Below are positions 1 through 64,000 of a stretch of 64,000 nt of DNA, one piece after another. A program made the position numbers and the translations under genes. Origin of the DNA: Planctomycetota bacterium (GTDB taxonomy: Bacteria; Planctomycetota; UBA8108; UBA1146). Where the stretch lies: positions 62,001-126,000 of the forward strand of contig JAAZXB010000002.1 of the NCBI GenBank assembly GCA_014240375.1, read 5' to 3'. The notes below the pieces were generated by a model. That model did not search any database. It was not told the origin of the DNA and worked only from the letters and a program-made list of their open reading frames with translations. Position 1 is the first letter of the stretch, and every line of letters begins with the position of its first letter.

Positions 1-1469
1 GCATCCATGTCGACGGTGACGCGCATCTTGCCGATCAGCAGGCGCCCATCCGCTCCGTCTCCGGAGGTGGCTACCGTCTGTGGCAAGGTCTGTCCCTCGA
101 AGGGCGGCAGAGCGTCGAGCAGGAGCGCCACGATCAGCTCGCAGCCGTCTCCGTCGTCGGGATCGTCATCGACCTGAACGGCGGTGTACTCGACACCGAC
201 CTGATCGAGGATCGAGCCGTTGAACTCCCAGGAGTCCTCGTGAATCGTCAAGTTACAGTCGTAACAGACGGTAAAGGTGAAACCCTGGATGTAATCGTCT
301 TCGTCAGAGTAGTAGAAGCACAGGTCACCGGTCTGGCCGTGGTAGGCGTAGTTCCCGGCGCCCTCGTCGAAGGCAGTTTCCATCCAGAGGGTGGTGTCTT
401 CGGCGGGATAGGCGATCGGATCGCAGGTAAATGTGCCATTTTCGTGTAACGGTGCCACGGAAAGTCCGCTAACCACGATCACATTATCGAGGGTCGGAGA
501 TCCAAGCGTTCCGTCACTGAGTGTCAATGCACTGGAATCACTGGCAGGAGTCGGCTCACCTTCGACGTATATATTCGCATTGTTGCAAGAGTACGTGTAG
601 GTGGCGATGTGAGTGTCATTTCCCTCGGGAATCGTCTGCCCTTCGAAGGGCGACTGAAAATCGAGGACTACTCCGTAAGTTCCGCCGTTGGGATATGTAT
701 TCGAGATCTCGAACTCAGCACCGGCAGCACTCGCGTCTGCACCAGTGGAAATCCCCTCGAGTGTGATCATTGTTGGATCGTGAGTGATCGCAGTCACGAA
801 CCCCTGAACACCGCCCAGGCTGTTATCGAGCAAGATTCGGGCATCACCAGTGGAACCGGTACCATCCGCGATCGCTGAACCATCCTCGATTCTCATCGTG
901 GCTGGAGGAGGAACCAGAAGGGTCAATGTTCCGCCGTTGAGTCCCAGTCCAGCGCCGGCTCCCACAGACAATCCACCCTGAACGAGAATGTTCGACAGCG
1001 GTGGGTTGTTAAGGGTGTTGTCAGAAAATGAAAAATCAACGTCGGTCTCTACCGAGACGACCGCCATCGGGGTGACGGTCACCATGGCGAGAGCTTGGCC
1101 AGTCCCCGCAGGGATTGAATGGCCGTCAAATGGGTGGTCTGCGTCCACGACGACCCCCAACGTAAATCCACCGGAAAGGATTTCCGGAACGATCAGCTCG
1201 GCATTTGAACTCTCTGTTGCTGTTCCAGCAGTAGACAGGTCTGAAACTGCTGCCATCGAGTCGTCGTATGCGACCGCGATGACAAAGCCCTCGGTCGGTT
1301 CGGTCGAATCGAGGGATATCGACAGAGTTTCCGGAGCCAGGCCTTGAGTACTGGAACTACTGATGTTGAGCGATTGCCCTCCACCAGCGAACACAGAATT
1401 TGAGAGTACCAGAGCGACAATGATCCACGTCAATGCGCGCACCTTGAAGACTGCTTTCGTGAGATACAT
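1..1469 (-). CDS. Secreted cohesin-like repeat protein, C-terminus beyond window edge
   Basis: One open frame runs from an ATG at 1469 to the window edge (489 codons) with no stop. A strong purine-rich ribosome site (AAGGGAGGAG) lies just upstream. Residues 1-28 form a signal peptide ending in SNSVFA, so the product is exported. The rest falls into about three modules of roughly 150 residues, beginning near residues 50, 205 and 340. Each has motifs such as GFVTAITHDPTM and GTYGVVLDF, the same style as the cohesin-like modules in the secreted proteins at 47857-61431. A dockerin-like end would be expected beyond the window but is not seen. The exact function is unknown. A structural, adhesive or matrix role is inference. 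Confidence 0.85.
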   Translation of the reverse strand, partial: MYLTKAVFKVRALTWIIVALVLSNSVFAGGGQSLNISSSSTQGLAPETLSISLDSTEPTEGFVIAVAYDDSMAAVSDLSTAGTATESSNAELIVPEILSGGFTLGVVVDADHPFDGHSIPAGTGQALAMVTVTPMAVVSVETDVDFSFSDNTLNNPPLSNILVQGGLSVGAGAGLGLNGGTLTLLVPPPATMRIEDGSAIADGTGSTGDARILLDNSLGGVQGFVTAITHDPTMITLEGISTGADASAAGAEFEISNTYPNGGTYGVVLDFQSPFEGQTIPEGNDTHIATYTYSCNNANIYVEGEPTPASDSSALTLSDGTLGSPTLDNVIVVSGLSVAPLHENGTFTCDPIAYPAEDTTLWMETAFDEGAGNYAYHGQTGDLCFYYSDEDDYIQGFTFTVCYDCNLTIHEDSWEFNGSILDQVGVEYTAVQVDDDPDDGDGCELIVALLLDALPPFEGQTLPQTVATSGDGADGRLLIGKMRVTVDMD

Positions 1470-47856: not shown

Positions 47857-49821
47857 CTATGGGCAGTCGCTAGTTCCTTCGCAATCGAAGTCCTCGCAAT
47901 CGGTCAGACCATCCAGGTCGTCATCGATCCCGTTGCTGCAATCCTCGAAGGGACATGGGTCTTCGCAGTTGTTGCTGACACTGGCTGCGCAGTCGATCGA
48001 GTCCTGAGAAGGATCGGCTCCACAGACTCCTGCTGGTGCCGGAGGCATCGGTCCCAATCCCATGATGAACATCAGATCAAAGAGGGGATCCACCAGGTTG
48101 AGCAATCCGTCGTCGTCCGCATCACAGGCGTCCGCACAGGTGATCTCGGTACTGGAAAAAAGGTAGTTCAACATCAAGACTGCATCCTGAATATTGATCG
48201 ATCCTTGATTGGAGCAATCTCCACGGATGAAAAGCGGTTGTGCTGGGCCCTTGATGATCTCTACCTGGGCAGATGGTGTCGCCAGTACCGGCGCATACAC
48301 CACTCCGCAAACTCCCACGACATTATCGATGGGAGGTGAACTATCGTTGAGCGCAAGCCCCTCGAATTGCAGATCGGTCACGCCGCTGTTTTGCCAATCC
48401 CCACAGGCCGCTTCATAAGTCGCACGAGCGACCAGTTTCCTGGTCTCATATGTGACGGTTTCGAGGGCAGGCCCACCGGGCACTCCGCCACCGACGGGAT
48501 CAAGGCTGTAAAGCACTCCCATGCACCAACCCACATCTCCACTACTATTTGCGGTGATGTCGTTTCCAATCGCAAAGGAAACATAGTCTGGAGAAACGCT
48601 CAGCATCTCTCCCGCTAACGCCACATCCATCACGGATAACAAAGCTGGATCATGAGACATTGACATCGAAAATCCGTGTGTGGCAGCTGGCCCACAAGGT
48701 GAGCCTTGCGCAACAGACCCCTCGATGAACAGGTCTACTGCTGCCACGGTCGGAGCACCGCCCTGAACCAGGGTGTAGTTTTGATCGATCGACTCAGCAC
48801 TGTAATTGAAACTGAAATCAGGATGCTGTTCGAGCCAATCAAAGGTGCACGTTTCGGTGGCAATCTGCGCATTATCGCACTCTTTTTCGATCAAGTAGTC
48901 CACGCTGCAACTGCAGGGAAGTCCGTCATCAATGTAACTGGTTTGCCCATCGATCAGGCTGGCGATCAAGATGCCATCGCGGAACAATTGAACCGGACTG
49001 GAAGAGTCACCCCAGGTCAGTTCAATCAACAGTTCTCCGGGAATCCTGATGCATGTGAGCTGGTTGGGAAAGTTGCATTCACAGGAGTCGGGAACCCCAT
49101 CGTTATTCATGTCAGTATCGTACCCCTGGACCAGATCGCAATCGTCGAGAAAGCCGTTCAAGTTGCAGTCGAGTGACGGATCCGCAGCAATTTCATCCGC
49201 ATCCAGTACGAGATTTCCATCGCAATCTCCGACCGAAATGATCGGAGTCCATGTGATCACTCCAGGTATGCACTCCGGTACAGATGATTGACCAGCCACA
49301 GTGACGATGTTCTCCACCACTGGGGCTCCGGGTGATCCTACAGTATCGGAGAATGACAGGGTGACCGTGGCGCCATCGAGAATCCCCACGAGGGCACTGG
49401 GGATCAAGGAATACGAAGCCACTGCAACTGCTTGCTCAGTTGTGAAGTCGATGGTGACAGAAGAATCAAAGGAGAATACTGCGACCATTGTAAAACCATC
49501 GCCGTAAATATTACTTGCGAAGAAATCGGGGCCCGCTCCTCCATTGAGAAGGGCCATCGATCCCGAACTCGAAACACTTGTGACCTGAAGGAGGGAGGAA
49601 TCATGGGTGGAACCTATCGAGATTCCTTGGGTGGGTGCGGGAGTCCCAGGGAGTTGTCTGACCAGAAGTGAAGAGTCGAATACTCCCGTTCCGTCGAGCA
49701 ACTCGTAGGTTCCCGTGCCAGTCTCAGCACGAAACTGGAACTGTGGAATTTGGCCATGAAGCGATGCGTACTGTAAAATACAGCACAAGATCACTCCCAG
49801 CTTAAATATCTTGTTCCCCAT
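47857..49821 (-). CDS. Secreted cohesin-like/dockerin-like protein, 654 residues
   Basis: Signal peptide 1-23 is followed by a cohesin-like module (about 25-190), an Asp-rich calcium-binding linker with CDGNLVLDADEIAADPSLDC (about 195-250), a fibronectin-like segment (255-335) and a second cohesin-like module (340-510; SPCGPAATHGFSMSMSHDPA, SPDYVSFAIGND). A dockerin-like pair follows at 529-590 (FIRGDCSNQGSINIQDAVLM and ACDADDDGLLNLVDPLFDLM). The end CSNGIDDDLDGLTDCEDFDC is Asp- and Cys-rich. It is the short version of the 2009-residue neighbour and has its own promoter match. Confidence 0.93.
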   Translation of the reverse strand: MGNKIFKLGVILCCILQYASLHGQIPQFQFRAETGTGTYELLDGTGVFDSSLLVRQLPGTPAPTQGISIGSTHDSSLLQVTSVSSSGSMALLNGGAGPDFFASNIYGDGFTMVAVFSFDSSVTIDFTTEQAVAVASYSLIPSALVGILDGATVTLSFSDTVGSPGAPVVENIVTVAGQSSVPECIPGVITWTPIISVGDCDGNLVLDADEIAADPSLDCNLNGFLDDCDLVQGYDTDMNNDGVPDSCECNFPNQLTCIRIPGELLIELTWGDSSSPVQLFRDGILIASLIDGQTSYIDDGLPCSCSVDYLIEKECDNAQIATETCTFDWLEQHPDFSFNYSAESIDQNYTLVQGGAPTVAAVDLFIEGSVAQGSPCGPAATHGFSMSMSHDPALLSVMDVALAGEMLSVSPDYVSFAIGNDITANSSGDVGWCMGVLYSLDPVGGGVPGGPALETVTYETRKLVARATYEAACGDWQNSGVTDLQFEGLALNDSSPPIDNVVGVCGVVYAPVLATPSAQVEIIKGPAQPLFIRGDCSNQGSINIQDAVLMLNYLFSSTEITCADACDADDDGLLNLVDPLFDLMFIMGLGPMPPAPAGVCGADPSQDSIDCAASVSNNCEDPCPFEDCSNGIDDDLDGLTDCEDFDCEGTSDCP

Positions 49822-49889
49822 TTATCCCCATTAAAACTCAAACCCTTTTGTTGCCGTGAATATCTCAGTCAAAAAACCCATACAATACT

Positions 49890-49917
49890 ATTATAGTTTT
49901 TCTTAGTCTTTCCGCAA
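49890..49917 (-). promoter_or_regulatory. Promoter of the 654-residue secreted protein
   Basis: On the minus strand TTGCGG (49917-49912), 16 bp, then a perfect TATAAT (49895-49890) is found about 70 bp before the start codon, in an AT-rich spacer. The -35 element overlaps a small hairpin, GTCTTT-CCGC-AAAGAC (49906-49921). Confidence 0.6.
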
Positions 49918-49970
49918 AGACACTCCGAGTTTGTCCCAAATGGGACTTCTTCCACATGAGGCTGAACTCA

Positions 49971-52900
49971 TCACGGTGACACCGGACATCCCTGAGTACA
50001 TGTGGTGGGAGGCGTGTCGCATCCGAGGTCTCCTCCTCCAACATCTGGAGTCGCGTCTCCTCCGCAAGAGGGCCAGCTAGGCGCAGGAGGCACCGGGCCA
50101 AGACCCATGATGAATAACAGCTCATAGACAGGGTCGACCAGATTGATGACGCCGTCATCATTGACGTCACTGGCGTCCAGACAATCCACTGCGACCCCCG
50201 AGAACATCAGATTCAACAACAGCACTGCGTCTTGAATATCGATGTCTCCATCATTGGAACAATCACCACGAATGAAAATCGGTAGCGGCTCGCCGACAAC
50301 CAGCGAGACACTGGCCGAAGGAATGGTGGCACCCAGATCTGCGGGGTATCCCACTCCACATACAACCACAACATTATCAATCAACTCGGCATCCGCTTCC
50401 AACCAGCGTCCTTCGAACTGGAAGTCGAGTTGGAACTCACCTGGATCGGGCCAATCCTGGCAATTCGCCTGGTAGATTGCCCTGGCTACCGGTTCATTGG
50501 TTTCAAAACTCACGGTTTCGAGCAATCCGTTGGCACTACCAAACGGATCAAAACTGTAGAGGATTCCGAGACTCCAGCCGACATGGCCACTGGCGTTGAC
50601 GCTGGCATCGTTTTCCATTGCGAAGGAAACATAATCGGGCGACGCCACCAACATGGCACCGGCAAGTTCCAGCCCGAGGATCGAAACCTGACTGGCATCA
50701 TGCGACATCGCCATGGTGAACCCATGGGTTGCCGCAGGACCACAGTGAGACTGGGGATCGACAAAGCCCTCGATGCTCACCTCGAGTTCAATGGTCGTGG
50801 GTGAACCCCCTTGTAGCAGGGTGACATTGTCCGCCGCAGGTTCGGCATTGAAACTGAAGTTCCAATCGGGGTGCGGTTCATTCCAGATGTAAGAGGCGCT
50901 ACGAGTGGCCGTTTGACCATTGGAGCACACCTTCGATATCTGATAATCGATGCCGCAGCTACAAGGCGCTACCAGATCGCTATAACTGGTTTCTCCACCG
51001 GTCAGGAATGCAATCTCGACGCCATCTCTGCTGACGATAACACCTGTGGCAAACTCGCCCCAGAAGAGATCGATGGTCGAACTACCAGGCAACCGGGTAC
51101 AGACCAAGTCCAGCGCGAACTCACACTCACACTCATCAGGAATCCCGTTATTATTCATGTCTGTAGCCACGCCCTGAGCAAGATCGCATTGGTCGACGAT
51201 TCCGTTCAGATTGCAATCAGAGGCGGGGTCCAGCAATTCCACATCGTCAGGAATGCCGTTGTTGTTGCAATCGTTATCTCCAGTACACCCGTCATTGTTG
51301 GGATTGTACGCCCCACTCGAGCAATCGTCGCAGCCGTCGAAGTCCGTATCCGAGCAAACGAACGGGTTGTTGATATTGCTATCGGAAAGATCGCAGACGC
51401 CATCGCCGTCGGTATCTATTCCATCTGCTCCAACATCATCGATTCCGCTGCTGCAATCGTCACAGCCGTCAAGGTCGACATCGCGACACACCAGGTTGTT
51501 GAGCGGAGCAGCATCGAGGAAGTCCGGGACACCATCATCGTCGTCGTCCGTGTCCCCTGAATCACAGAGTCCATCCCCGTCGGTGTCGAGCCCATCTGCG
51601 GCCAGATCGAAGGTTCCACCGGAACAGTCGTCACAACCGTCTGCATCGATATCCGAGCAGGCAGTCGGGTTTTGATCGTCGCTGTCGACCGCATCGGGGG
51701 CGCCATCTCCGTCGTCATCCGGGTCTCCCCCATCGCATAGGCCATCACCGTCGAAATCCACGCCATCTTCAGCCGGATTGTAGGACCCACCGCTGCAGTC
51801 GTCACAACCATCACCATCGGTGTCGGAGCAGACATTGGGGTTGAAGTCGTCGGAGTCGGAGGTGTTGAGTGCACCATCTCCGTCGATATCGGGATCGGTC
51901 AGGTCACAGACGCCATCCCCATCGATATCAGTGCCGTCATTGGCGACATCGTAACTACCGTTGCTGCAGTCGTCACAGCCGTCACCGTCGGTGTCGGAAC
52001 AGACATTGGCATTGAACTCGTCAGAGTCGGCAGCGTTGAGCACTCCGTCTCCATCGATATCGGGATCGGTCAGGTCACAAACGCCATCCCCATCGGTATC
52101 GGTGCCGTCGTTGGCCACGTCGTAACTACCGTTGCTGCAGTCGTCACAGCCGTCACCGTCGGTGTCGGAGCAGACATTGGCGTTGAAGTCGTCGGAGTCG
52201 GCCGCATTGAGCGCGCCATCTCCGTCGATATCGTCGTCGGTCACGTCACAAGTGCCGTCGCCATCGGTATCGGTGCCGTCGGCAGCCGGGTTGTAGGAAC
52301 CTCCGCTGCAATCGTCACAACCATCACCGTCGGTGTCGGAGCAGATATTGGGGTTGTTGTCGTCGCTGTCGGTCGCGTCGAGAGATCCGTCATTATCATC
52401 GTCAGGATCACATTCATCGATGATCCCGTCGAGATCGGTATCGAGCTGGCAATCATCTTCCTGCCCGTTCCCGTCGCAGTCGATCCCCTCGACGGTGCCA
52501 TCGTTGTGATCGTCAGCATCACAGCCGTTGAGGAATCCATCTCCGTCGATATCCGGATCACAGTTGTCGATGAGGCCATCATTGTCCGTGTCGAGCTGAC
52601 AGATATCGAGTTGGCCGTCCAGGTCACAATCGGCTCCGACCGTCTGATCCACATCGCAGACATCTGGAATTCCGTCCCCATCGAGATCGCTATCACAGGC
52701 GTCGATCACCCCATCGCCATCCGTGTCGCTCTGACACGAGTCGAGCTGGCCATTTCCATCACAATCTTCACCTGTAGTTTGATCGGTATCACAGATATTG
52801 GGGATTCCATCTCCATCGATATCGGAATCGGTCAGGTCACAGATGCCATCGCTGTCGGTATCGGTGCCGTCGTTGGCCGGGTTATCGGTACCGCTGGAGC

Positions 52901-55900
52901 AGTCGTCACAGCCGTCGGCGTCAGCATCACGACAGAGGGTGTTATCGAGCGGTGCACTGTCGGCGCCGTCCGCTACACCGTCGCCATCATCATCTGAATC
53001 GCAATCGTCGATGGTCCCGTCAGAATCGGTATCGATCTCGCAGTGATCGAGTTCGCCGTCCTGATCACAATCGTCTCCGACCGTCTGATCCGCATCGCAG
53101 ATATCTGGAATTCCGTCCCCATCGAGATCGCTATCACAGGGATCGATCACCCCATCGCCATCCGTGTCATCCTGGCACGAGTCGAGTTCGCCATTTCCGT
53201 CACAATCTTCACCTGCAGTGTGATCGGAATCACAGATATTGGGGATTCCATCTCCATCGATATCGGAATCGGTCAGGTCGCAGATGCCATCGCTGTCGGT
53301 ATCGGTGCCGTCGCTGGCCGGGTTATCGGTACCGCTGGAGCAGTCGTCGCAGCCGTCACCGTCGGCGTCGCGGCACTGGGTATTGTCGAGCGGCGCACTG
53401 TCGTCGCCGTCGGCCACACCGTCGTTGTCGTCATCTGTGTCACCGGAGTCGCACAGACCGTCACCGTCGGTATCGATACCGTCAGCAGCCGGGTTGTCGG
53501 TTCCGCTGGAGCAGTCGTCACAGCCGTCACCGTCGGAGTCGCGGCACTGAGTGTTGTCGAGTGGCGCACTGTCGTCAGCGTCGGCCACACCGTCGTTATC
53601 GTCATCTGTGTCACCGGCGTCGCACTGTCCGTCACCGTCGGTATCGGTACCGTCGGCAGCAGGGTTGTCGGTTCCGCTGGAGCAGTCGTCACAGCCGTCA
53701 CCGTCGGCGTCGCGGCACTGGGTGTTATCGAGCGGAGCACTGTCGAGGCCGTCCGCCACTCCGTCGTTGTCGTCGTCGGCGTCACCGGCGTCGCACTGTC
53801 CGTCGCCGTCAGTATCAGTACCGTCGGCAGCCGGGTTGTAACTTCCGCCGGAGCAGTCGTCGCAGCCGTCACCATCGGTGTCGGAGCAGACATTGGCATT
53901 GTTGTCATCACTGTCATTAGCATCGAGTGCACCATCATTGTCGTCGTCGGGATCGCCGCTGTCGCAGAGACCGTCACCGTCGAAGTCGGCGCCGTCGTTT
54001 CCGGGAGCGTCGGTTCCGCTGGAGCAGTCGTCGCAGCCGTCACCGTCGGCGTCGCGGCACTGGGTGTTGTCGAGCGGCGCACTGTCGTCGCCGTCGGCCA
54101 CACCGTCGTTGTCGTCATCTGTGTCACCGGAGTCGCACAGACCGTCACCGTCGGTATCGATACCGTCAGCAGCCGGGTTGTCGGTTCCGCTGGAGCAGTC
54201 GTCGCAGCCGTCACCGTCGGAGTCGCGGCACTGAGTGTTGTCGAGTGGCGCACTGTCGTCAGCGTCGGCCACACCGTCGTTATCGTCATCAGGATCTGAA
54301 GCGTCACAGATGCCATCTCCGTCGGTGTCCAGTTCCGCGGAGCAGTCCGGATCGTTGCAATCGATCAGTGTATCGAGATCATCATCGAGACCATTATTGC
54401 AATTCTCAGGATCTGTAAAGGTGATCACGATGGGCAGTTCTGTGGTATCTGCGCTCAGTCCACCTGTAAGAGTTACCACCGGGCTCACGGGAGGATCTCC
54501 CAGCGTGGCGGGTAAAATCGTGGTCGAAAACGGCAAGTTCAAGAAGGCACCGACCGTTGAATACTCCACCTCGAGCATCGGCTGATTCACCTCGCAAAGG
54601 ATCACATCCAGCAAAGTGGTGTCGTAAATCACTCCTAGTGTGAAGCCATCCGGTAACAACACCGTGGTGAAAAAATCTGGCCCTGCACCGTTGTTACAAG
54701 CAGCCAGTTCCCCCAGCGATGGAGCTAAATTTGAAGAACCGACGAAGTAGGGTGCCGTCACGGAGATCACCGACGGATCATGCTGGTAAGAGAACTGGAA
54801 TCCAGCGGTAGGGTGCACCGTACCGGTGAGTTGCTGGATACTGAAGACTACATTGAAGGAGGTCAGCGGAGTTCCGAGCGGGATGAACAGATCTGTGGAA
54901 GAGATCTGGAATGTCTTCTGTGCCACCGCCGGATCACAGTGACCATCATTATCTGTATCGGTGCCATCATTCAGGGGATCATTGTCCGGCAAGGGACCAA
55001 ATCCGTCCAATCCGATGGAACAATCGTCGCAACCATCTGCATCTATATCTTCACAGATGGTTGGATCACTCGGATTCAGGTCATCGACATCCAGAACACC
55101 GTCGTTGTCATCATCTGGATCTCCGCCATCGCACAGACCATCTGAATCCAGATCAGTACCATCCTCTAACGGATTGTCGACTCCACTCGAACAGTCGTCG
55201 CAGCCATCCTGGTCATCGTCCCGGCACAAGAATTCATCGAGAGGATGGCTGTCGAGACCGTCAGGTACCAGGTCATTATCAGCGTCAGGGTCTCCGCCAT
55301 CGCACAATCCGTCACCATCTGTGTCTGTTTCCGCCGCGCAGTCGGGATCCGCGCAATCGATGAGCGAATCCTGATCATCGTCGATCAAATTGAAACAGTC
55401 CTCTATCGGGGTGAAGGTGATCTCGAAGGGCAATGCGTCCGTTGCTGCGGACACTCCTGGAGGAATCGCCACCACTGTTGCCAGTGGCGGTGTCCCCAGT
55501 TCCGCCGGTATCACAGTTGTCGTGAAAGGCAAATTGCTGAGCACACCGTTGGTTGAGTAGCCGACTTCGATCACAGGCTTGGTCACTTCAAAGGTGATCG
55601 ATTGCTGCAAGGTGAAGTCATAGATCACGCCAAATGTGAAGCCGTTCGCCAGTATCTGAGCCGAAACAAAGTCTGGCCCCGTACCACCATTGAGAGTGAC
55701 GAGATCACCCAGAAATGGTGAGGCTGCAGTGCGGTCGAGAAAGTAAGGATCGATCACCTGGAGCACCAACGGGTCATGTTCGAATGAAAAAGTGAATCCC
55801 GAAGTTGGAGAGATTGGAGAGGTTAGAGTGTTGGTCTGCTCGACGCTGAAAGTCACCGAGAAGGTCACCGGATCCAGCCCTGCGGCAAGTGTCTGATCCG

Positions 55901-56000
55901 GAGATGTGATCTGAAAGGTGGGATCTTGTCCACATGTGATCGAGCCTGTGAATAACAGACCCGCGAGTAACACAAGTAGTGAGAACACCAGACGCTTCAA
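49971..56000 (-). CDS. Giant secreted calcium-binding Asp-repeat protein with cohesin-like and dockerin-like modules
   Basis: The product is 2009 residues from a TTG codon (after GAGAGAGATC) with a clear signal peptide (LVFSLLVLLAGLLFTGSITC). Order: cohesin-like 1 (about 28-200), Asp repeats (203-360), cohesin-like 2 (363-527), a long thrombospondin-type-3-like block (530-1570), a fibronectin-like part (about 1620-1700), cohesin-like 3 (1717-1867) and dockerin-like pair (1903-1960). The block has 16 copies of a GCDDCS signature among DTDGDG-type loops, so it should bind many calcium ions and be rigid when loaded. A recent 275-bp internal duplication is present. Family architecture suggests surface matrix or adhesion; this is inference. 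Confidence 0.93.
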   Translation of the reverse strand: MKRLVFSLLVLLAGLLFTGSITCGQDPTFQITSPDQTLAAGLDPVTFSVTFSVEQTNTLTSPISPTSGFTFSFEHDPLVLQVIDPYFLDRTAASPFLGDLVTLNGGTGPDFVSAQILANGFTFGVIYDFTLQQSITFEVTKPVIEVGYSTNGVLSNLPFTTTVIPAELGTPPLATVVAIPPGVSAATDALPFEITFTPIEDCFNLIDDDQDSLIDCADPDCAAETDTDGDGLCDGGDPDADNDLVPDGLDSHPLDEFLCRDDDQDGCDDCSSGVDNPLEDGTDLDSDGLCDGGDPDDDNDGVLDVDDLNPSDPTICEDIDADGCDDCSIGLDGFGPLPDNDPLNDGTDTDNDGHCDPAVAQKTFQISSTDLFIPLGTPLTSFNVVFSIQQLTGTVHPTAGFQFSYQHDPSVISVTAPYFVGSSNLAPSLGELAACNNGAGPDFFTTVLLPDGFTLGVIYDTTLLDVILCEVNQPMLEVEYSTVGAFLNLPFSTTILPATLGDPPVSPVVTLTGGLSADTTELPIVITFTDPENCNNGLDDDLDTLIDCNDPDCSAELDTDGDGICDASDPDDDNDGVADADDSAPLDNTQCRDSDGDGCDDCSSGTDNPAADGIDTDGDGLCDSGDTDDDNDGVADGDDSAPLDNTQCRDADGDGCDDCSSGTDAPGNDGADFDGDGLCDSGDPDDDNDGALDANDSDDNNANVCSDTDGDGCDDCSGGSYNPAADGTDTDGDGQCDAGDADDDNDGVADGLDSAPLDNTQCRDADGDGCDDCSSGTDNPAADGTDTDGDGQCDAGDTDDDNDGVADADDSAPLDNTQCRDSDGDGCDDCSSGTDNPAADGIDTDGDGLCDSGDTDDDNDGVADGDDSAPLDNTQCRDADGDGCDDCSSGTDNPASDGTDTDSDGICDLTDSDIDGDGIPNICDSDHTAGEDCDGNGELDSCQDDTDGDGVIDPCDSDLDGDGIPDICDADQTVGDDCDQDGELDHCEIDTDSDGTIDDCDSDDDGDGVADGADSAPLDNTLCRDADADGCDDCSSGTDNPANDGTDTDSDGICDLTDSDIDGDGIPNICDTDQTTGEDCDGNGQLDSCQSDTDGDGVIDACDSDLDGDGIPDVCDVDQTVGADCDLDGQLDICQLDTDNDGLIDNCDPDIDGDGFLNGCDADDHNDGTVEGIDCDGNGQEDDCQLDTDLDGIIDECDPDDDNDGSLDATDSDDNNPNICSDTDGDGCDDCSGGSYNPAADGTDTDGDGTCDVTDDDIDGDGALNAADSDDFNANVCSDTDGDGCDDCSNGSYDVANDGTDTDGDGVCDLTDPDIDGDGVLNAADSDEFNANVCSDTDGDGCDDCSNGSYDVANDGTDIDGDGVCDLTDPDIDGDGALNTSDSDDFNPNVCSDTDGDGCDDCSGGSYNPAEDGVDFDGDGLCDGGDPDDDGDGAPDAVDSDDQNPTACSDIDADGCDDCSGGTFDLAADGLDTDGDGLCDSGDTDDDDDGVPDFLDAAPLNNLVCRDVDLDGCDDCSSGIDDVGADGIDTDGDGVCDLSDSNINNPFVCSDTDFDGCDDCSSGAYNPNNDGCTGDNDCNNNGIPDDVELLDPASDCNLNGIVDQCDLAQGVATDMNNNGIPDECECEFALDLVCTRLPGSSTIDLFWGEFATGVIVSRDGVEIAFLTGGETSYSDLVAPCSCGIDYQISKVCSNGQTATRSASYIWNEPHPDWNFSFNAEPAADNVTLLQGGSPTTIELEVSIEGFVDPQSHCGPAATHGFTMAMSHDASQVSILGLELAGAMLVASPDYVSFAMENDASVNASGHVGWSLGILYSFDPFGSANGLLETVSFETNEPVARAIYQANCQDWPDPGEFQLDFQFEGRWLEADAELIDNVVVVCGVGYPADLGATIPSASVSLVVGEPLPIFIRGDCSNDGDIDIQDAVLLLNLMFSGVAVDCLDASDVNDDGVINLVDPVYELLFIMGLGPVPPAPSWPSCGGDATPDVGGGDLGCDTPPTTCTQGCPVSP
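53332..53606. repeat. Intragenic duplicated segment, copy A
   Basis: These 275 bp recur at 54016-54290 (offset 684 bp) with two differences that I can see, 53381 A versus G and 53520 A versus G. Both are synonymous on the coding (minus) strand (Asn and Cys codons). Confidence 0.9.
54016..54290. repeat. Intragenic duplicated segment, copy B
   Basis: This is the partner of 53332-53606. The duplicated unit encodes about two Asp-repeat periods of the giant secreted protein, in frame (684 bp is 228 codons). Confidence 0.9.
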
Positions 56001-56136
56001 GATCTCTCTCTTCTCAGTCCTTCCGAGTCACCCATGAGTCGCTCGGAGGTCCATTATTTGTTGATTCAAATTCACTTTCGAATTGAAACTGACAGCAGGT
56101 CGGCACTGTGACCGCCCTGCTGATCTGGCCTCGAAT

Positions 56137-59100
56137 CTATGGAGTTGCCGGACATTCCTGGGAACAGGCATTAAAACTGGAACACTCCAGAGCATCCGGA
56201 GTTGGATCCGCTCCGCAGACCAATCCCGGGGACGGAGGCACAGGACCCAGTCCCATGATGTACATCAATTCATAAATCGGGTCGACGAGGTTGATCAAAC
56301 CATCATCGTTGACGTCACTGGCATCTCGACAAGCCACCGGTGTCCCCGAGAACAGATGGTTCAAGAGCAGTACCGAATCCTGAAGGTTGATGCTTCCGTC
56401 GTTGGAGCAATCACCTCGAATGAACACCTCATTGGTCGAGTTATTCTCGATCTGCAACGTCAGGATTCCCCCTGAGTTTGCTGTGTAACCAAGACTACCC
56501 ACGGCTACCTGATTGGAGATGATTCCATTACTGCCGCCAAGGTCTAGATCCTGAAAACTCAGTGTGGTGGATCCTGCTTCCGGCCAATCTCCGCACACCA
56601 CCTCGTAACTGGCCCTGACCACGTCAGTCGGAGTATCAAAAGTACGATCAAGGACTGGCCCACCAGGACCTGGAGGAGTCAGTGAGTAGATGACGCCGAG
56701 CGTCCATCCGGTATCGGTTCCACCACCAATATTGTCGATCCTTGGCGAAACGAAATCAGGTGTTGAACCGAGGAATGGCAACGCTTCTAGATCCACCACC
56801 GACAGTCCCTGGTCGCCAACGACATGCGACATCGACATGGTGAATCCATGAGTCTCCGCATATCCACAAGGTCCTCCTGGAGTGAGGGTCTCTTCGATGG
56901 AGGCAGTCACCTCAAGAGTGGTCGCCACTGTCCCGTTGTAAACGGTAATGGGACCCGCAACAGACGAAGCAGAGAAGGTGAAACTACCTGCCTCCGGATG
57001 AGCGAGCATCTGTCTGTGAACCTCGATCTCGGTGAGAGTGGTCCTGATCAGAGCAGGGTCGGGTTCGAAGGAGAGCCCCTGAGATGTTCCACTCTGTAGG
57101 CCCGCTTGCGAACCTGCAGACGAGGTCCATGCAGTGGTACCAGAAAGGGCCACATACTGTCCGAAGTGAATCCAGTCGGTATCCAGAGGGTCATTCACCA
57201 TCTGTTCTGTCATCGCCCATGAACCACAACGATTGTCAAAGATGAAGGCGGTTTCTCGGTTCGATCCGATGAACGCCTGGTCACCAGAGATGGCCAGATC
57301 TTGACCAAAACCGAGGGGGCCGCCTGACGGATCGACACACGACGCATCGATTCCTATGCTCGAGTGGAAGGACCAACTGTCGTCCAGATTCCTCTGGAAG
57401 ACGTATATGGCTCCCTCATTTTCGGCTGCCACGCTATCTTCGTCGGCGGCCACCATGATGGTGTTGTTCGACATGGCCACAGCTGAACCAAAAGCTTGCC
57501 CTTCCGACACACCCGGAACCTCCAGTCGCTCGTAGGAAGAGTTATCCCAGTTGCCGCTGTTGTCGGGGTAGAAGAGGAACGCTTGTCCATTGATCGGACT
57601 CTGAAGATCTGCGGTAGATTCAGGATTGGGCTTTGTGTCGGTACCGAGCACCAGGTAGTCACCTGCGATGGCGAGCGAACCCCTGTGTCCCAACGAAAGA
57701 CGATCATCGACTTGCGCATCCGAAGCGCTAAGCGTCAGTTTCGCCAGCTGGTCAAGCGCCCAGAATGATCCCTGTGAAGTCAACTGGAACAGGTAAGCCG
57801 CTCCCGCATCGACCTGACTGCTGTCGTCTCCGTTGGCTCCCACGAGCAAACGATCTGTGGCGATATCGAGAGCCAGTCCCTCACCGAAGCGGTCACCCGA
57901 TGCTGGGTCGATGGAACTTCCACTGGCCAGTTGAGGTTTGATCTCACCCTGCATGGTGTAATTCAGATTGTTCAGGTCCCAGCGGTAGAGGAACACCGAC
58001 CCACCTGGAGCGGAATCTGGAGTACTGATGATCAGATACTGCTGCTCCTTCAGCGCCAGGTGCTGGCCAAATCCGTCACCGGACTGAGTACCCGCAAGAT
58101 CCTGGATCTTGCTCCATTCTCCCAACACGTCTCTCTCATAGACCGAGACATTTCCATTGCTGGTGGCTGTCGCTGGACTCGCCATCAGTGCGTGGTTGCC
58201 ATCGATCACGACCGGATTCAAGTCAGCCAAACTCGGTTCAAACAACGGGTCTCCGTTGTTGTCGATCGGAGTTTTCATGTTGGCGACCGATGGAGTGCGC
58301 GAATTCTCACAAACTCTGGTCACGGTGTAACGAACTCCATCGTAGCAAGGCGTACTCAGGTCCGTGAATGACGACCCCTCGTAGTCAGATTCCAGCACCT
58401 CAATGATTTCCATCCCATCGAGGATCTCTCGCTCGATCAACAGGCCAGAAATGGATTCGAATCCATTCCATGAAATCATGAAATTGCCATCGGGTTGGAC
58501 CATTGAAGTCAGGTCCAACTGGCACTCACAACTATCCAGCATGGCATTCTGGTTCAGATCCCAGTCGCACCCGGTCTCGATATCACAGGGGAAATCGATC
58601 AGTCCGTTGCCATTGCAATCGCTCGCACCTCCGATGCCCTCGGTGATCTCGAATGGATCAGGAAGGCCATTCGAATTACAGTCATACCCATCGGGAACCG
58701 TGATGATGATGGTCTGAAGAATGGGCTCGCTCGACACTCCATTTGAATCGGTCACCATCCAGGTCAGTTCGGTACCTGCAGGACCGTAAGAGTAATCTCC
58801 TTGGGTATCTCCAGGAATGACGGACCCCACGGCAGTCGGCACACCAGTGACTTCAATCGTGAAGGATCCCTGCAAACCACTGACAGTACAGTTGTCGGAG
58901 ATGTCTCCCGCGGCAAAAGGCATCGGCGGGGCAAATGAGAACTTGCCTGCGGTGAGGCTTGCCATCCCGACACCCACCTTGGTGTAGGTCGCAGTGTTAT
59001 TTCCCGGGTCAAATCCACTAATCACAGGTGCTTCGGAGTCGGTCACGGTGATGGAAAACTGGTGAGTCGTCGAGTTCCCGTGGCTATCAGTCAGGGTCAT

Positions 59101-61431
59101 CGTGACTGTAGAAGTACCCAGATCGAAGAGATCTCCTGAACTGGAGGTCGACACGTCCGATGCGATGCCACAATTATCTGAAGCGCTGTGGGCAGCCCAG
59201 GTGGCCACAGCCCCACAAAGACCGGGATCGCTGTCAAGATTCTGCGACAGTGGCAATCCACTGTAAGCAGGAGACTCATCATCAGTGACTGTGATGTCGA
59301 AGGAAGCACTGGTCGAAAGACCATTAGCATCGAGGGAAGTGTAGGTCACCGTCGTCGTACCTACCGTGAAGTTGTCCCCCGGCTGGTGAGTGCTGGAGAG
59401 CACGGCTCCAGAGCAGTTATCTGTCGTGGTCGGAAGCGTCCAGTTGATCACGGCTCCACAATCCCCAGCATCTGCGCTGTGGGTGATGCCGGAAGGCATG
59501 CCGAGCAGTTGCGGAGTTTCAGTATCTGTCACGGTGATGGTGAGTTGGTGAGTTGTGACGTTGCCGTGAATGTCGGTCAGGGTCATCGTCACGGTCGTCG
59601 CGCCAATCTCGAAGACTTCACCTGAGGCAGCAGTCGACGTATCCGAGGCAATTCCACAGTTATCTGAACTGCTGTGGGCAGCCCAGGTGGCCACCGCTCC
59701 ACAGGAATCAGGATCACTCGAAAGATCCTGCGAAGCCGGTGCTCCGGTGTAAGCCGGTGCTTCATCGTCAGAGATGCTGATATCAAAGGAAGCACTGGTC
59801 GAGAGACCATTGGCATCGTCTGAGGTGTAGGTCACCGTCGTCGTACCGACCGGGAAGTTGTCGCCCGGCTGGTGGCTGCTGGTGAGCAGCGGATCCGGAC
59901 AGTTATCGGTGGTGGTCGGAGCAGTCCAGCTGGCCGTTGCACCACAGCTGCCGGCATCCACAGCTTGCGTCATGTTGGTGGGCATGCCGATCAGTTGCGG
60001 AGATTCAGTATCTGTCACGGTGATGGTGTACTCGTGGACCGTCGAATTACCGTGGATATCGGTGAGAGTCATCGTCACTGCCGTCGTACCGAGCTCGAAG
60101 AAATCACCCGAGGCAGAGGTCGACGTGTCCGAATCAACACCACAGTTATCAGAGCTACTGTGGGCAGCCCAGGTGGCCACCGCTCCACAGGAACCAGCAT
60201 CACTCGAAAGATCCTGCGAAGCCGGTGCTCCGGTGTAAGCCGGTGCTTCATCGTCAGAGATGCTGATATCAAAGGAAGCACTGGTCGAGAGACCATTGGC
60301 ATCGAGGGAGGTGTAGGTCACCGTCGTCGTACCGACCGGGAAGTTGTCGCCCGGCTGGTGGCTGCTGGTGAGCAGCGGATCCGGACAGTTATCGGTGGTG
60401 GTCGGAGCAGCCCAGCTGATCGTCGCGCCACAGTTACCCGCTTCAGCGGTCTGCGTCATGCTACTGGGCATGCCGAGGATCTCAGGTGCCTGGTCATCCA
60501 ACACTGTCACGGTGAACATGGAGGTCGATACTTTTCCAAAGCTATCGGTCGCAGTGTAAGTCACCTCAGTAGTTCCGAGATCGAAGGCAGAACCGCTCGC
60601 GATATCGGACACTGCGCTGATCTGACCGTCGCAGAAATCTTCCGCTACTGGCAACTCTGCCCAGTTCACCAGAGCAGTGCAACTACCGATCTCCGCGGGG
60701 ATCTGCAGGTTATTCGGCAATCCTGTAATCGCTCCTGGAGGATCATTGTGGAACTCGTCACAGGGATCGATGAGCACGATCTCCACCACCACGCTGGCGA
60801 TGAAGAACTGGAGATCCTCTGGATCCGCTGAAAGATCGAAACTGGTCGGAGTGATTCTCAGACCCAGCGACTCGAGAGATGCTGCCGTCCAGGCGTTGGT
60901 CACGAAACTGGAACCGGAGAGGCTCGAGCATTGCTGACCATCCTTCGTCGGGATCTGGCTGGAAAACAGCGGACTCCAACCAGTTCCAGCAGAACCATGC
61001 TCTACCAGAACATCGACGGGGATCAACTCGAGAGTGGATTGCGCGCGACAATAGACCTTGACGGAGATTTCTTTGATTTCTCGATCTCCAGGGAGAGTCC
61101 AGACATCTCCCACCGCGGTATGAAACATCCCCACATCAATTCCCGCGGGGGGAAGGCTGACGGAGGTAGTGTATACGGAGTGAGTCTCGCCAGAGGCACC
61201 CCCCGCAACATCACAATCACAGGGAGCCGTCTGATTGATCGTTTGACCAAAGGAACCCGGGTCGCCCACATTCGATTGATTGTTCCACTCAGCCGAGGAT
61301 GCGGCTTCGGTGCCGAACAACCGGACAGGATAAGTGACTTCTGTTTGTGCCAACAGCAGAGGACTGCTACTGGTGATCACCAGCAGTAGAACAACAACAG
61401 TTGTGAGAAGTCGCGAATTGAAAGCTAGCAT
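56137..61431 (-). CDS. Large secreted protein with HYR repeats, beta-propeller-like repeats and dockerin-like end
   Basis: The ATG at 61431 has TAGGAG 6 bp upstream and starts the signal peptide MLAFNSRLLTTVVVLLLVIT; an ATG at 61473 lacks a ribosome site. The product is 1764 residues. After a unique N-terminal part (30-225) come seven HYR-like units (about 225-800), alternating two subtypes, each with a conserved Cys pair. Next are a Cys/Asp-rich linker, FG-GAP-like repeats (about 1070-1440; FGQDLAISGDQAFIGSNRET), a cohesin-like module (about 1477-1620) and a dockerin-like pair (about 1667-1733). HYR and FG-GAP modules occur in adhesion proteins. Its role here is unknown. Confidence 0.93.
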   Translation of the reverse strand: MLAFNSRLLTTVVVLLLVITSSSPLLLAQTEVTYPVRLFGTEAASSAEWNNQSNVGDPGSFGQTINQTAPCDCDVAGGASGETHSVYTTSVSLPPAGIDVGMFHTAVGDVWTLPGDREIKEISVKVYCRAQSTLELIPVDVLVEHGSAGTGWSPLFSSQIPTKDGQQCSSLSGSSFVTNAWTAASLESLGLRITPTSFDLSADPEDLQFFIASVVVEIVLIDPCDEFHNDPPGAITGLPNNLQIPAEIGSCTALVNWAELPVAEDFCDGQISAVSDIASGSAFDLGTTEVTYTATDSFGKVSTSMFTVTVLDDQAPEILGMPSSMTQTAEAGNCGATISWAAPTTTDNCPDPLLTSSHQPGDNFPVGTTTVTYTSLDANGLSTSASFDISISDDEAPAYTGAPASQDLSSDAGSCGAVATWAAHSSSDNCGVDSDTSTSASGDFFELGTTAVTMTLTDIHGNSTVHEYTITVTDTESPQLIGMPTNMTQAVDAGSCGATASWTAPTTTDNCPDPLLTSSHQPGDNFPVGTTTVTYTSDDANGLSTSASFDISISDDEAPAYTGAPASQDLSSDPDSCGAVATWAAHSSSDNCGIASDTSTAASGEVFEIGATTVTMTLTDIHGNVTTHQLTITVTDTETPQLLGMPSGITHSADAGDCGAVINWTLPTTTDNCSGAVLSSTHQPGDNFTVGTTTVTYTSLDANGLSTSASFDITVTDDESPAYSGLPLSQNLDSDPGLCGAVATWAAHSASDNCGIASDVSTSSSGDLFDLGTSTVTMTLTDSHGNSTTHQFSITVTDSEAPVISGFDPGNNTATYTKVGVGMASLTAGKFSFAPPMPFAAGDISDNCTVSGLQGSFTIEVTGVPTAVGSVIPGDTQGDYSYGPAGTELTWMVTDSNGVSSEPILQTIIITVPDGYDCNSNGLPDPFEITEGIGGASDCNGNGLIDFPCDIETGCDWDLNQNAMLDSCECQLDLTSMVQPDGNFMISWNGFESISGLLIEREILDGMEIIEVLESDYEGSSFTDLSTPCYDGVRYTVTRVCENSRTPSVANMKTPIDNNGDPLFEPSLADLNPVVIDGNHALMASPATATSNGNVSVYERDVLGEWSKIQDLAGTQSGDGFGQHLALKEQQYLIISTPDSAPGGSVFLYRWDLNNLNYTMQGEIKPQLASGSSIDPASGDRFGEGLALDIATDRLLVGANGDDSSQVDAGAAYLFQLTSQGSFWALDQLAKLTLSASDAQVDDRLSLGHRGSLAIAGDYLVLGTDTKPNPESTADLQSPINGQAFLFYPDNSGNWDNSSYERLEVPGVSEGQAFGSAVAMSNNTIMVAADEDSVAAENEGAIYVFQRNLDDSWSFHSSIGIDASCVDPSGGPLGFGQDLAISGDQAFIGSNRETAFIFDNRCGSWAMTEQMVNDPLDTDWIHFGQYVALSGTTAWTSSAGSQAGLQSGTSQGLSFEPDPALIRTTLTEIEVHRQMLAHPEAGSFTFSASSVAGPITVYNGTVATTLEVTASIEETLTPGGPCGYAETHGFTMSMSHVVGDQGLSVVDLEALPFLGSTPDFVSPRIDNIGGGTDTGWTLGVIYSLTPPGPGGPVLDRTFDTPTDVVRASYEVVCGDWPEAGSTTLSFQDLDLGGSNGIISNQVAVGSLGYTANSGGILTLQIENNSTNEVFIRGDCSNDGSINLQDSVLLLNHLFSGTPVACRDASDVNDDGLINLVDPIYELMYIMGLGPVPPSPGLVCGADPTPDALECSSFNACSQECPATP
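59713..59924. repeat. HYR-encoding near-identical repeat, copy A
   Basis: These 212 bp match 60199-60410 (offset 486 bp, 162 codons) except for three adjacent bases at 59819-59821, that is, one codon. Confidence 0.9.
60199..60410. repeat. HYR-encoding near-identical repeat, copy B
   Basis: Partner of 59713-59924. One repeat period covers a pair of HYR units. Confidence 0.9.
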
Positions 61432-62228
61432 TTCAGCTCCTACTTGGTTCCTCGGAATAAAATCCAATTTCATGTTTCAATGGTTCGACAACTTTGGTCG
61501 ATACCGCATGGCAAAGGTCGCCCAGCCACAATGTCAATTTCACCACAATGTCAATTTCAGCACATTGTCAATTCCAGCAGGAGTTCTGCCTGCTTGATTT
61601 CATCTTGATTTCCACACGAGGGATTCACCGCTCAGTGATCATGAGTAGTGTCAGAACTACTCCGTGCATCACTTCGTCGAGATGAATTCCCCGAGCATCT
61701 AACAATCATGCATTCCGAATCACAAAGTCCACCAGGCTTTTGAGTTACTTCGACCCAGTGATGATCAAAGACGGACCAGTTTGTCGTGAAACCCAGAAGA
61801 ACTCCGGGGGATAACCCCCCTGCTAAGTTGGAATGTTACACCCTTCAACAGAACCACTTCGATATGAATTATGCAAGAGTGCTGGCTACCACGAGAAACT
61901 GTGCAACGTCATCGTCATAAGTCAGGTTCGACCATCGGAAGTAATTCCCCGATCACATTACTTAGATGACCACAATGATTCAGTCCAGACCTTGTCTGTG
62001 CGAAGACCAGAACTGAACTTTCCTGACTATGAAAACCCTCCAATCCCTCGAGAAGGGGAAGGGCATCATGGTCAAGAGATGATCCATCGACACCCTCGTG
62101 GGTGCTTGCGGATCCGCAGGATGGAGGCAACGTCAGACGGGATCCGGCGCGCACGGTGAGCCCCTTGAAATCTGGCAGCGACCGCCCCATATTGAATCGA
62201 CCCCATCTTCCGCCTGAGGAGTTCAACA
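61432..62228. other. Spacer without a recognisable gene
   Basis: About 800 bp separate the divergent genes. It is AT-richer than its flanks and should hold promoters for both. Frames on either strand look random. It includes a 17-bp triplicated repeat at 61526-61576. Confidence 0.55.
61526..61576. repeat. 17-bp tandem repeat, three units
   Basis: CCACAATGTCAATTTCA occurs twice (61526-61559) and once as GCACATTGTCAATTCCA (61560-61576), about 95 bp upstream of the HYR gene start, in its presumed promoter region. Confidence 0.95.
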
Positions 62229-63593: not shown

Positions 63594-64000
63594 TCAGGAG
63601 CAGGGCAGCGAATCGGGAGTCGGATCGGGACCAGCGCTGCCGACCGGTGGCGGCACTGGCGGCGATCCGGTCACGAACAGCGAGTTGAGGAAGTAGATTT
63701 CGTCGGTCAGATTGACGTTCCCCGTGTCATCGGTATCGCACGCCTTCATGCACTGCGGCGGGATGCCGCCTGCAAACAGGTAGGTGAGTCCGAAGATGAC
63801 ATCTGCCAGGTTGACCGAATCATCGCCGTTGCAGTCGCCTCGCAGGAAGATCGGTTGCTCGAGGAAGGTCAAGGTCGCCCCATCTCGAGCAGGTCCCATG
63901 ATCGCCCCATCGATGATGATCTGATTGACCACCTGGGATGGACCCAATCCGTCGATGAAAGAGAGCTGCCGCTCCTCGCCATCGACGAATCCCGAGGCAG
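63594..64000 (-). CDS. Dockerin-type secreted protein, 5' part beyond window edge
   Basis: The frame is open to the window edge; 134 codons plus the stop are visible. It ends with a dockerin-like pair: FLRGDCNGDDSVNLADVIFG, then CDTDDTGNVNLTDEIYFLNS, then the tail GSPPVPPPVGSAGPDPTPDS. This is the same C-terminal design as the proteins at 47857, 49971 and 56137, with a variant loop (GLTYLFAGGIPPQC). The upstream part should hold cohesin-like modules but is not in view. Confidence 0.88.
   Translation of the reverse strand, partial: ASGFVDGEERQLSFIDGLGPSQVVNQIIIDGAIMGPARDGATLTFLEQPIFLRGDCNGDDSVNLADVIFGLTYLFAGGIPPQCMKACDTDDTGNVNLTDEIYFLNSLFVTGSPPVPPPVGSAGPDPTPDSLPCS

Follow-up and report, generated by a model that had tools for sequence, protein, structure and literature searches.

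Putative adaptor subunits of a genome-wide cohesin-dockerin system encoded by three neighbouring genes of a Planctomycetota bacterium

RESULTS

Three neighbouring genes combine cohesin and dockerin modules on one chain

Three neighbouring genes on the minus strand of a 64,000-nucleotide stretch of Planctomycetota DNA (hereafter the window) code for proteins with a signal peptide, one or more cohesin modules and a dockerin tail. We think it probable, on balance, that these proteins (the trio) are adaptor-type subunits of a surface cohesin-dockerin system that extends over the whole genome. Features of the rest of the genome favour an anchored assembly with branches, made up of lipoprotein anchors that have a cohesin only, adaptors that carry both modules, and clients with a dockerin only.

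The three open reading frames were found where a preliminary description of the window had placed them. Gene A (47857..49821, 654 aa) codes for a signal peptide, a cohesin (49276..49692, residues 44-182), a short Asp/Cys linker, a second cohesin (48289..48789) and a dockerin with two calcium loops and a PPxP/CGADPS tail (47989..48231). Past the dockerin, gene A ends in an acidic double-disulfide repeat (47857-47990), which matches NF033662 below the cut-off. Gene B (49971..56000, 2009 aa, TTG start) codes for a signal peptide, two cohesins (55461..55862 and 54456..54857), a long series of Asp-rich, TSP_3-like calcium repeats (approximately 51051..54413), a third cohesin (50337..50786) and a dockerin tail (50040..50276). 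Gene C (56137..61473) codes for 1778 residues, or 1764 from the second Met, which accounts for the 1764 residues reported initially; its signal peptide is followed by seven stretches of HYR repeats (approximately 58924..60735; Pfam, E 6.6e-78), FG-GAP_2 repeats (approximately 57214..58236; Pfam, E 1.1e-18), a cohesin (56479..56916) and a dockerin tail (56182..56424). HYR and FG-GAP_2 in gene C, together with a weak TSP_3 match in gene B, were the repeat families that Pfam detected in the trio.

The C-terminal units of genes A, B and C, of about 280 residues, are 48-55% identical in alignment, and the last 81 residues are 60-67% identical. The shared arrangement of cohesin, two-loop dockerin and proline-rich tail noted before is borne out. 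The middle parts differ as had been described for the Asp-rich repeats of gene B and the HYR and FG-GAP repeats of gene C; gene A, however, is not devoid of a middle module, as it carries the cohesin at residues 44-182, and the two N-terminal cohesins of gene B had been overlooked. The further members at both edges of the window are real. The left one (3..1469, minus strand) has three cohesins (927-1391, 420-908 and 3-389), and its dockerin lies just beyond the window, at G000:C43:61613-61849 (G000 being the window's genome). The right one (63600..64000, minus strand) shows the last part of a cohesin and, at 63600-63848, a dockerin tail; the gene starts outside the window (G000:C43:125600-126289). 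Between both cohesin-dockerin clusters, at 3072-38542, lies a housekeeping block with rpoA, secY, EF-G, rpoC, rpoB, EF-Tu and cysS. About 10 cohesin-dockerin genes, mostly with two or three cohesins each, stand in tandem at G000:C43:40425-63821 (L078, L079), next to the window on its left side.

The tail is a dockerin

Across 146 tails of the genome, the ligand positions of both calcium loops (D-x-N/D-x-D-G-x-x-D/N-x-x-D) are kept at 86-100%. The loops are followed by PPxP and then by CGxDPTxDxLxC, often with a final CP, which makes up the last two residues in 76 tails. A profile search of the PDB with the tail matched 25 chains, nearly all of them dockerins, with a best E-value of 1.1e-6; Pfam Dockerin_1 (PF00404, type I-like) was matched by genes A and C at sub-threshold scores, under the curated cut-off. 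Judged by the intact calcium-loop ligands and the PDB matches, the identification of the trio tail as a dockerin is firm, and the dockerin-like module was called correctly at the outset. A search of viral_contigs with the tail found no relative.

Using a profile built from four tails, we found at least 149 dockerin tails in the 3.4 Mb genome, a lower bound since 150 of 190 candidates were scored; this census covers the stretches around search matches. The tail ends the protein, within 20 residues of the stop codon, in 139 of the 149 cases. With tails in such number and at the end of the protein, the one shared by the trio is far beyond chance. A signal-peptide-like stretch was recognised by a crude hydrophobicity rule in 116 of the 131 tail-bearing reading frames with a complete start. 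One 444-residue dockerin reading frame occurs twice in opposite orientation (L072, G000:C39:7551 and 9492), identical where compared, possibly owing to a recent inverted duplication or to an assembly artefact.

The position of the tail, its strongly conserved PPxP/CGxDPTxDxLxC ending and its presence throughout the class on very different secreted proteins would also suit a C-terminal sorting signal, like the CTD of type IX secretion, that is read by an outer-membrane machine, with the cohesin-like modules as ordinary adhesive domains. We hold this to be highly doubtful. A type IX-type sorting domain is obligatorily C-terminal, and in five proteins of G000 (C25:1590, C26:81006, C30:45259, C32:138837 and C54:215657) the module stands directly behind the signal peptide; for this reason we rank the sorting signal below a dockerin. 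Moreover, both calcium loops are intact and match those of true dockerins; the cohesin fold, too, is found in the tail-bearing genomes, and a genome from outside the class has neither tail nor cohesin.

The partner module has features of a cohesin

The N-terminal module of gene A was modelled with AlphaFold2 (pLDDT 69.5, pTM 0.67). When the model was compared with the PDB using Foldseek, the top 38 matches were all cohesins; the best E-value was 2.1e-3, the E-values being modest and the TM-scores between 0.3 and 0.5. A profile of the cohesin modules also matched cohesins only in the PDB (E 0.013 to 0.19), and hhalign against the cohesins of CipA gave P 0.0014. Direct matches to Pfam Cohesin (PF00963) are few: at E 1 it matched two of 39 cohesin modules and none of the window proteins, and its curated cut-off was passed by one member of the genome outside the window (26.2 versus 24.1 bits). 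Prediction of the C-terminal units had been put forward as a check on the preliminary description; the cohesin fold came out for the N-terminal module of gene A, but the cohesin-dockerin unit at its C-terminus, modelled from a seven-row alignment, reached a pLDDT of only 30.5 and the model was set aside. The fold of the C-terminal cohesins of the trio thus rests on the N-terminal module of gene A and on homology, and a cohesin beta-sandwich is supported by modelling for that N-terminal module. The cohesin-like modules, too, had been called correctly in the preliminary description.

Both modules occur together throughout the genome and the class

A search of the genome gave 83 cohesins. Iteration from the three C-terminal modules of the trio gave about 80 cohesin modules in 55 tail-bearing reading frames, so that 55 proteins of the genome have both modules on one chain, with one to three cohesins each. 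The pairing is therefore not special to the trio locus, as 52 other proteins carry both. Tails and cohesins were found together in 29 of 30 relatives; the thirtieth, from another class, has neither. Among 149 genomes of the phylum, every sampled member of the class has the tail in high number and five others have one to four copies, while cohesins, as detected by Pfam, are scattered elsewhere in the phylum. Two genomes of the same class, of about 9 Mb (G018 and G026), gave 446 and 737 first-look tail candidates, of which 150 were scored; some relatives may thus hold several hundred dockerins.

In 41 of 54 adaptors, 11-25 residues separate the cohesin from the downstream dockerin. This nearly constant spacing counts against the adaptor reading, as the cohesin could be there for structure and not for binding. 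The adjoining cohesin would then support the dockerin in the manner of the X module of cellulosomal X-dockerins and bind its own dockerin or nothing, leaving the lipoprotein cohesins described below as the only receptors, with no chains formed. The cohesins of those lipoproteins fall into one group of the tree, with weak support (0.42), as this arrangement would suggest. About 30 other cohesins of the genome, however, do not adjoin a dockerin, and in the lipoproteins this module occurs with no dockerin on the chain. We regard a purely structural role as unlikely.

Cohesin-only lipoproteins are candidate anchors

Only three intact cohesin reading frames of the genome are without a dockerin, and all three code for lipoproteins (G000:C31:2711-4231, C31:4179-8870 and, on C98, L129:2626-4050); two truncated candidates, at C48, cut at the contig start, and at C120, cut at the 3' end, were left out of the intact set. 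Each lipoprotein has a lipobox-like stretch (IGGC, LAGC and LSGC, respectively), He_PIG Ig-like domains as a stalk (E 2e-22, 3e-91 and 9e-17) and a single C-terminal cohesin. Lipoproteins thus make up 3/3 of the tail-less cohesin proteins versus 2/131 of the tail proteins, with one false regex match set aside (Fisher p 2.6e-5, for a contrast chosen post hoc). Two of the three adjoin a cohesin-dockerin gene. At G000:C31:2711-8870 and C31:10178 (L128, L051), two He_PIG-cohesin lipoproteins are followed by a cohesin-dockerin gene, a unit conserved across the family; the same lipoproteins are found family-wide, often with a short and a long one in succession, followed by the gene with both modules. 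In two families that are less closely related within the class, dockerins and cohesins are present, complete cohesin reading frames are nearly all tail-bearing, and no tail-less cohesin lipoprotein was seen; the last of these points counts against the adaptor model. The cohesin-only lipoproteins probably fix the assembly to the cell surface and, to judge from their lipobox, may be located in the outer membrane.

About 90 tail proteins (88) lack a cohesin, and 83 of these were scanned for domains. The domains found include FG-GAP, P_proprotein, MauG di-haem peroxidase, collagenase M9, endonuclease I, metallophosphatase, arylsulfotransferase, esterase, HYR, PKD and LTD. By domain match, some of the dockerin-only clients are enzymes, namely peroxidases, a collagenase, a nuclease and phosphatases. 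The 83 proteins were scanned as two client sets, and the 25 families with the most matches in each set include no glycoside hydrolase.

The adaptor model includes inferences on binding, on its dependence on calcium, on the outer membrane as location and on the formation of polymers. In this model the lipoproteins would sit in the outer membrane and their terminal cohesins would capture dockerins with calcium. Adaptors would extend and branch the assembly, and dockerin-only clients would dock at free cohesins. If the trio pairs mainly within itself, it could form chains or branches. That cohesins are fewer than dockerins in the genome counts against this model.

The trio may have a specificity of its own

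The specificity of type I dockerins is set in part by loop residues 10-11. At the corresponding positions of the tails, which we presume to be those of recognition, the trio has IQ/LQ and LV, and the rest of the genome has mostly IA, IS or LA. Gln at that position of loop 1 occurs in three of 146 tails, and all three belong to the trio. The C-terminal cohesins of the trio also form a single clade (support 0.998). We dropped the idea of one specificity shared by all tails including those of the trio, whose residues are unusual at the presumed recognition positions. Together, the private residues and the monophyletic cohesins suggest that the trio may be an orthogonal subset, and private pairing within the trio seems a reasonable prediction from these sequences.

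A chain made within the trio would be compatible with these observations. According to the preliminary description, the trio alone would polymerise head to tail, the dockerin of one chain entering the cohesin of the next, to give a calcium-dependent surface matrix. Each chain does have a dockerin and one or more cohesins, and in two other species the trio genes likewise lie together, as judged by strong tail matches and the loci from JABHOG01 and DUAN01. Docking within a chain is also possible, however, and an anchored assembly with branches is a better match for the many other proteins with both modules, the candidate anchors and the dockerin-only clients. We therefore find polymerisation of the trio alone rather unlikely. 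A combined view, in which a single cohesin-dockerin code couples a large part of the extracellular proteome throughout the class while the trio is an orthogonal pair building its own chain, strikes us as possible but somewhat doubtful; here, about 100 or more secreted proteins per genome, with Cys-containing dockerins, would be held by the cohesins of He_PIG-stalk lipoproteins.

DISCUSSION

A dockerin tag used throughout the class, together with conserved lipoproteins that carry cohesins, is a direct and testable answer to the question of how planctomycetes keep many large secreted proteins on their surface. If it is true, cohesin-dockerin coupling can serve general surface display and not only a cellulose machine. 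The putative receptor genes to be examined first are now named, and the trio offers a possible natural orthogonal cohesin-dockerin pair.

According to the preliminary description, the cohesin and the dockerin of cellulosomes reside on separate proteins. This is wrong, as primary and adaptor scaffoldins carry both on one chain (PMC11557425). Like the scaffoldin and adaptor systems of Acetivibrio and Ruminococcus, the genome described here encodes putative cohesin-only anchors, cohesin-dockerin adaptors and dockerin-only clients, and its three family-conserved He_PIG-stalk lipoproteins, if indeed at the surface, would be the counterpart of the cellulosomal cell-surface cohesin anchor. Unlike in cellulosomes, the clients are not mainly polysaccharidases, a chain mostly has one to three cohesins, with five in one relative, He_PIG-stalked lipoproteins are the likely anchors and the dockerins have a Cys/Pro C-terminal extension. 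No large multi-cohesin scaffoldin was seen in the window's genome, where a recognised tail-bearing reading frame has at most three cohesins. A canonical cellulosome was rejected because of this and because glycoside hydrolases are missing among the client domains listed.

Ruminococcus flavefaciens FD-1, a rumen fibre degrader with the cohesin-bearing scaffoldins ScaA, B, C and E, has 222 dockerins and a block of adjacent genes with a common C-terminal dockerin unit (PMC2930009). The very large dockerin repertoire and the adjacent genes that share a dockerin unit are points of likeness; the present system, in contrast, belongs to a 3.4 Mb planctomycete in which no large scaffoldin was seen. The complex of Ca. 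Stygibacter (Cloacimonadota) likewise unites non-cellulosic dockerin enzymes with cohesins in an uncultured bacterium, but through a single large scaffoldin that has tandem cohesins and, at its C-terminus, a conserved domain for attachment to the surface (PMC8542988); no large scaffoldin was seen here.

A precedent in kind is the 'planctosome' hypothesis for freshwater Nemodlikiaceae (Andrei et al., 2019; PMC6461901), which likewise concerns a planctomycete, a non-cellulosic function, put as peptide degradation, and an adaptor in which one chain unites dockerin, HYR and cohesin. Gene C has these modules (seven HYR stretches, a cohesin and a dockerin), along with FG-GAP, in a different order. 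The partner proteins proposed for the planctosome carry P-domains, TSP3 and LTD, and LTD and P-domain are also present among the 83 dockerin clients scanned. The planctosome anchor is one LTD/P-domain/TSP3 cohesin protein (PMC6461901); neither an anchor of this type nor an M14/M12B client appeared among the families listed. At least 149 dockerins, 83 cohesins, three putative He_PIG lipoprotein anchors and a wide range of clients set the present system apart. Both modules on one chain are already known from scaffoldins (PMC11557425) and were proposed in 2019 for a planctomycete, with an HYR adaptor among the proteins (PMC6461901). To these precedents the present analysis adds an extent that covers the genome and the class, conserved lipoproteins with He_PIG domains and a cohesin that are likely to be the anchors, five N-terminal dockerins, which argue against a sorting signal, and the private signature of the trio.
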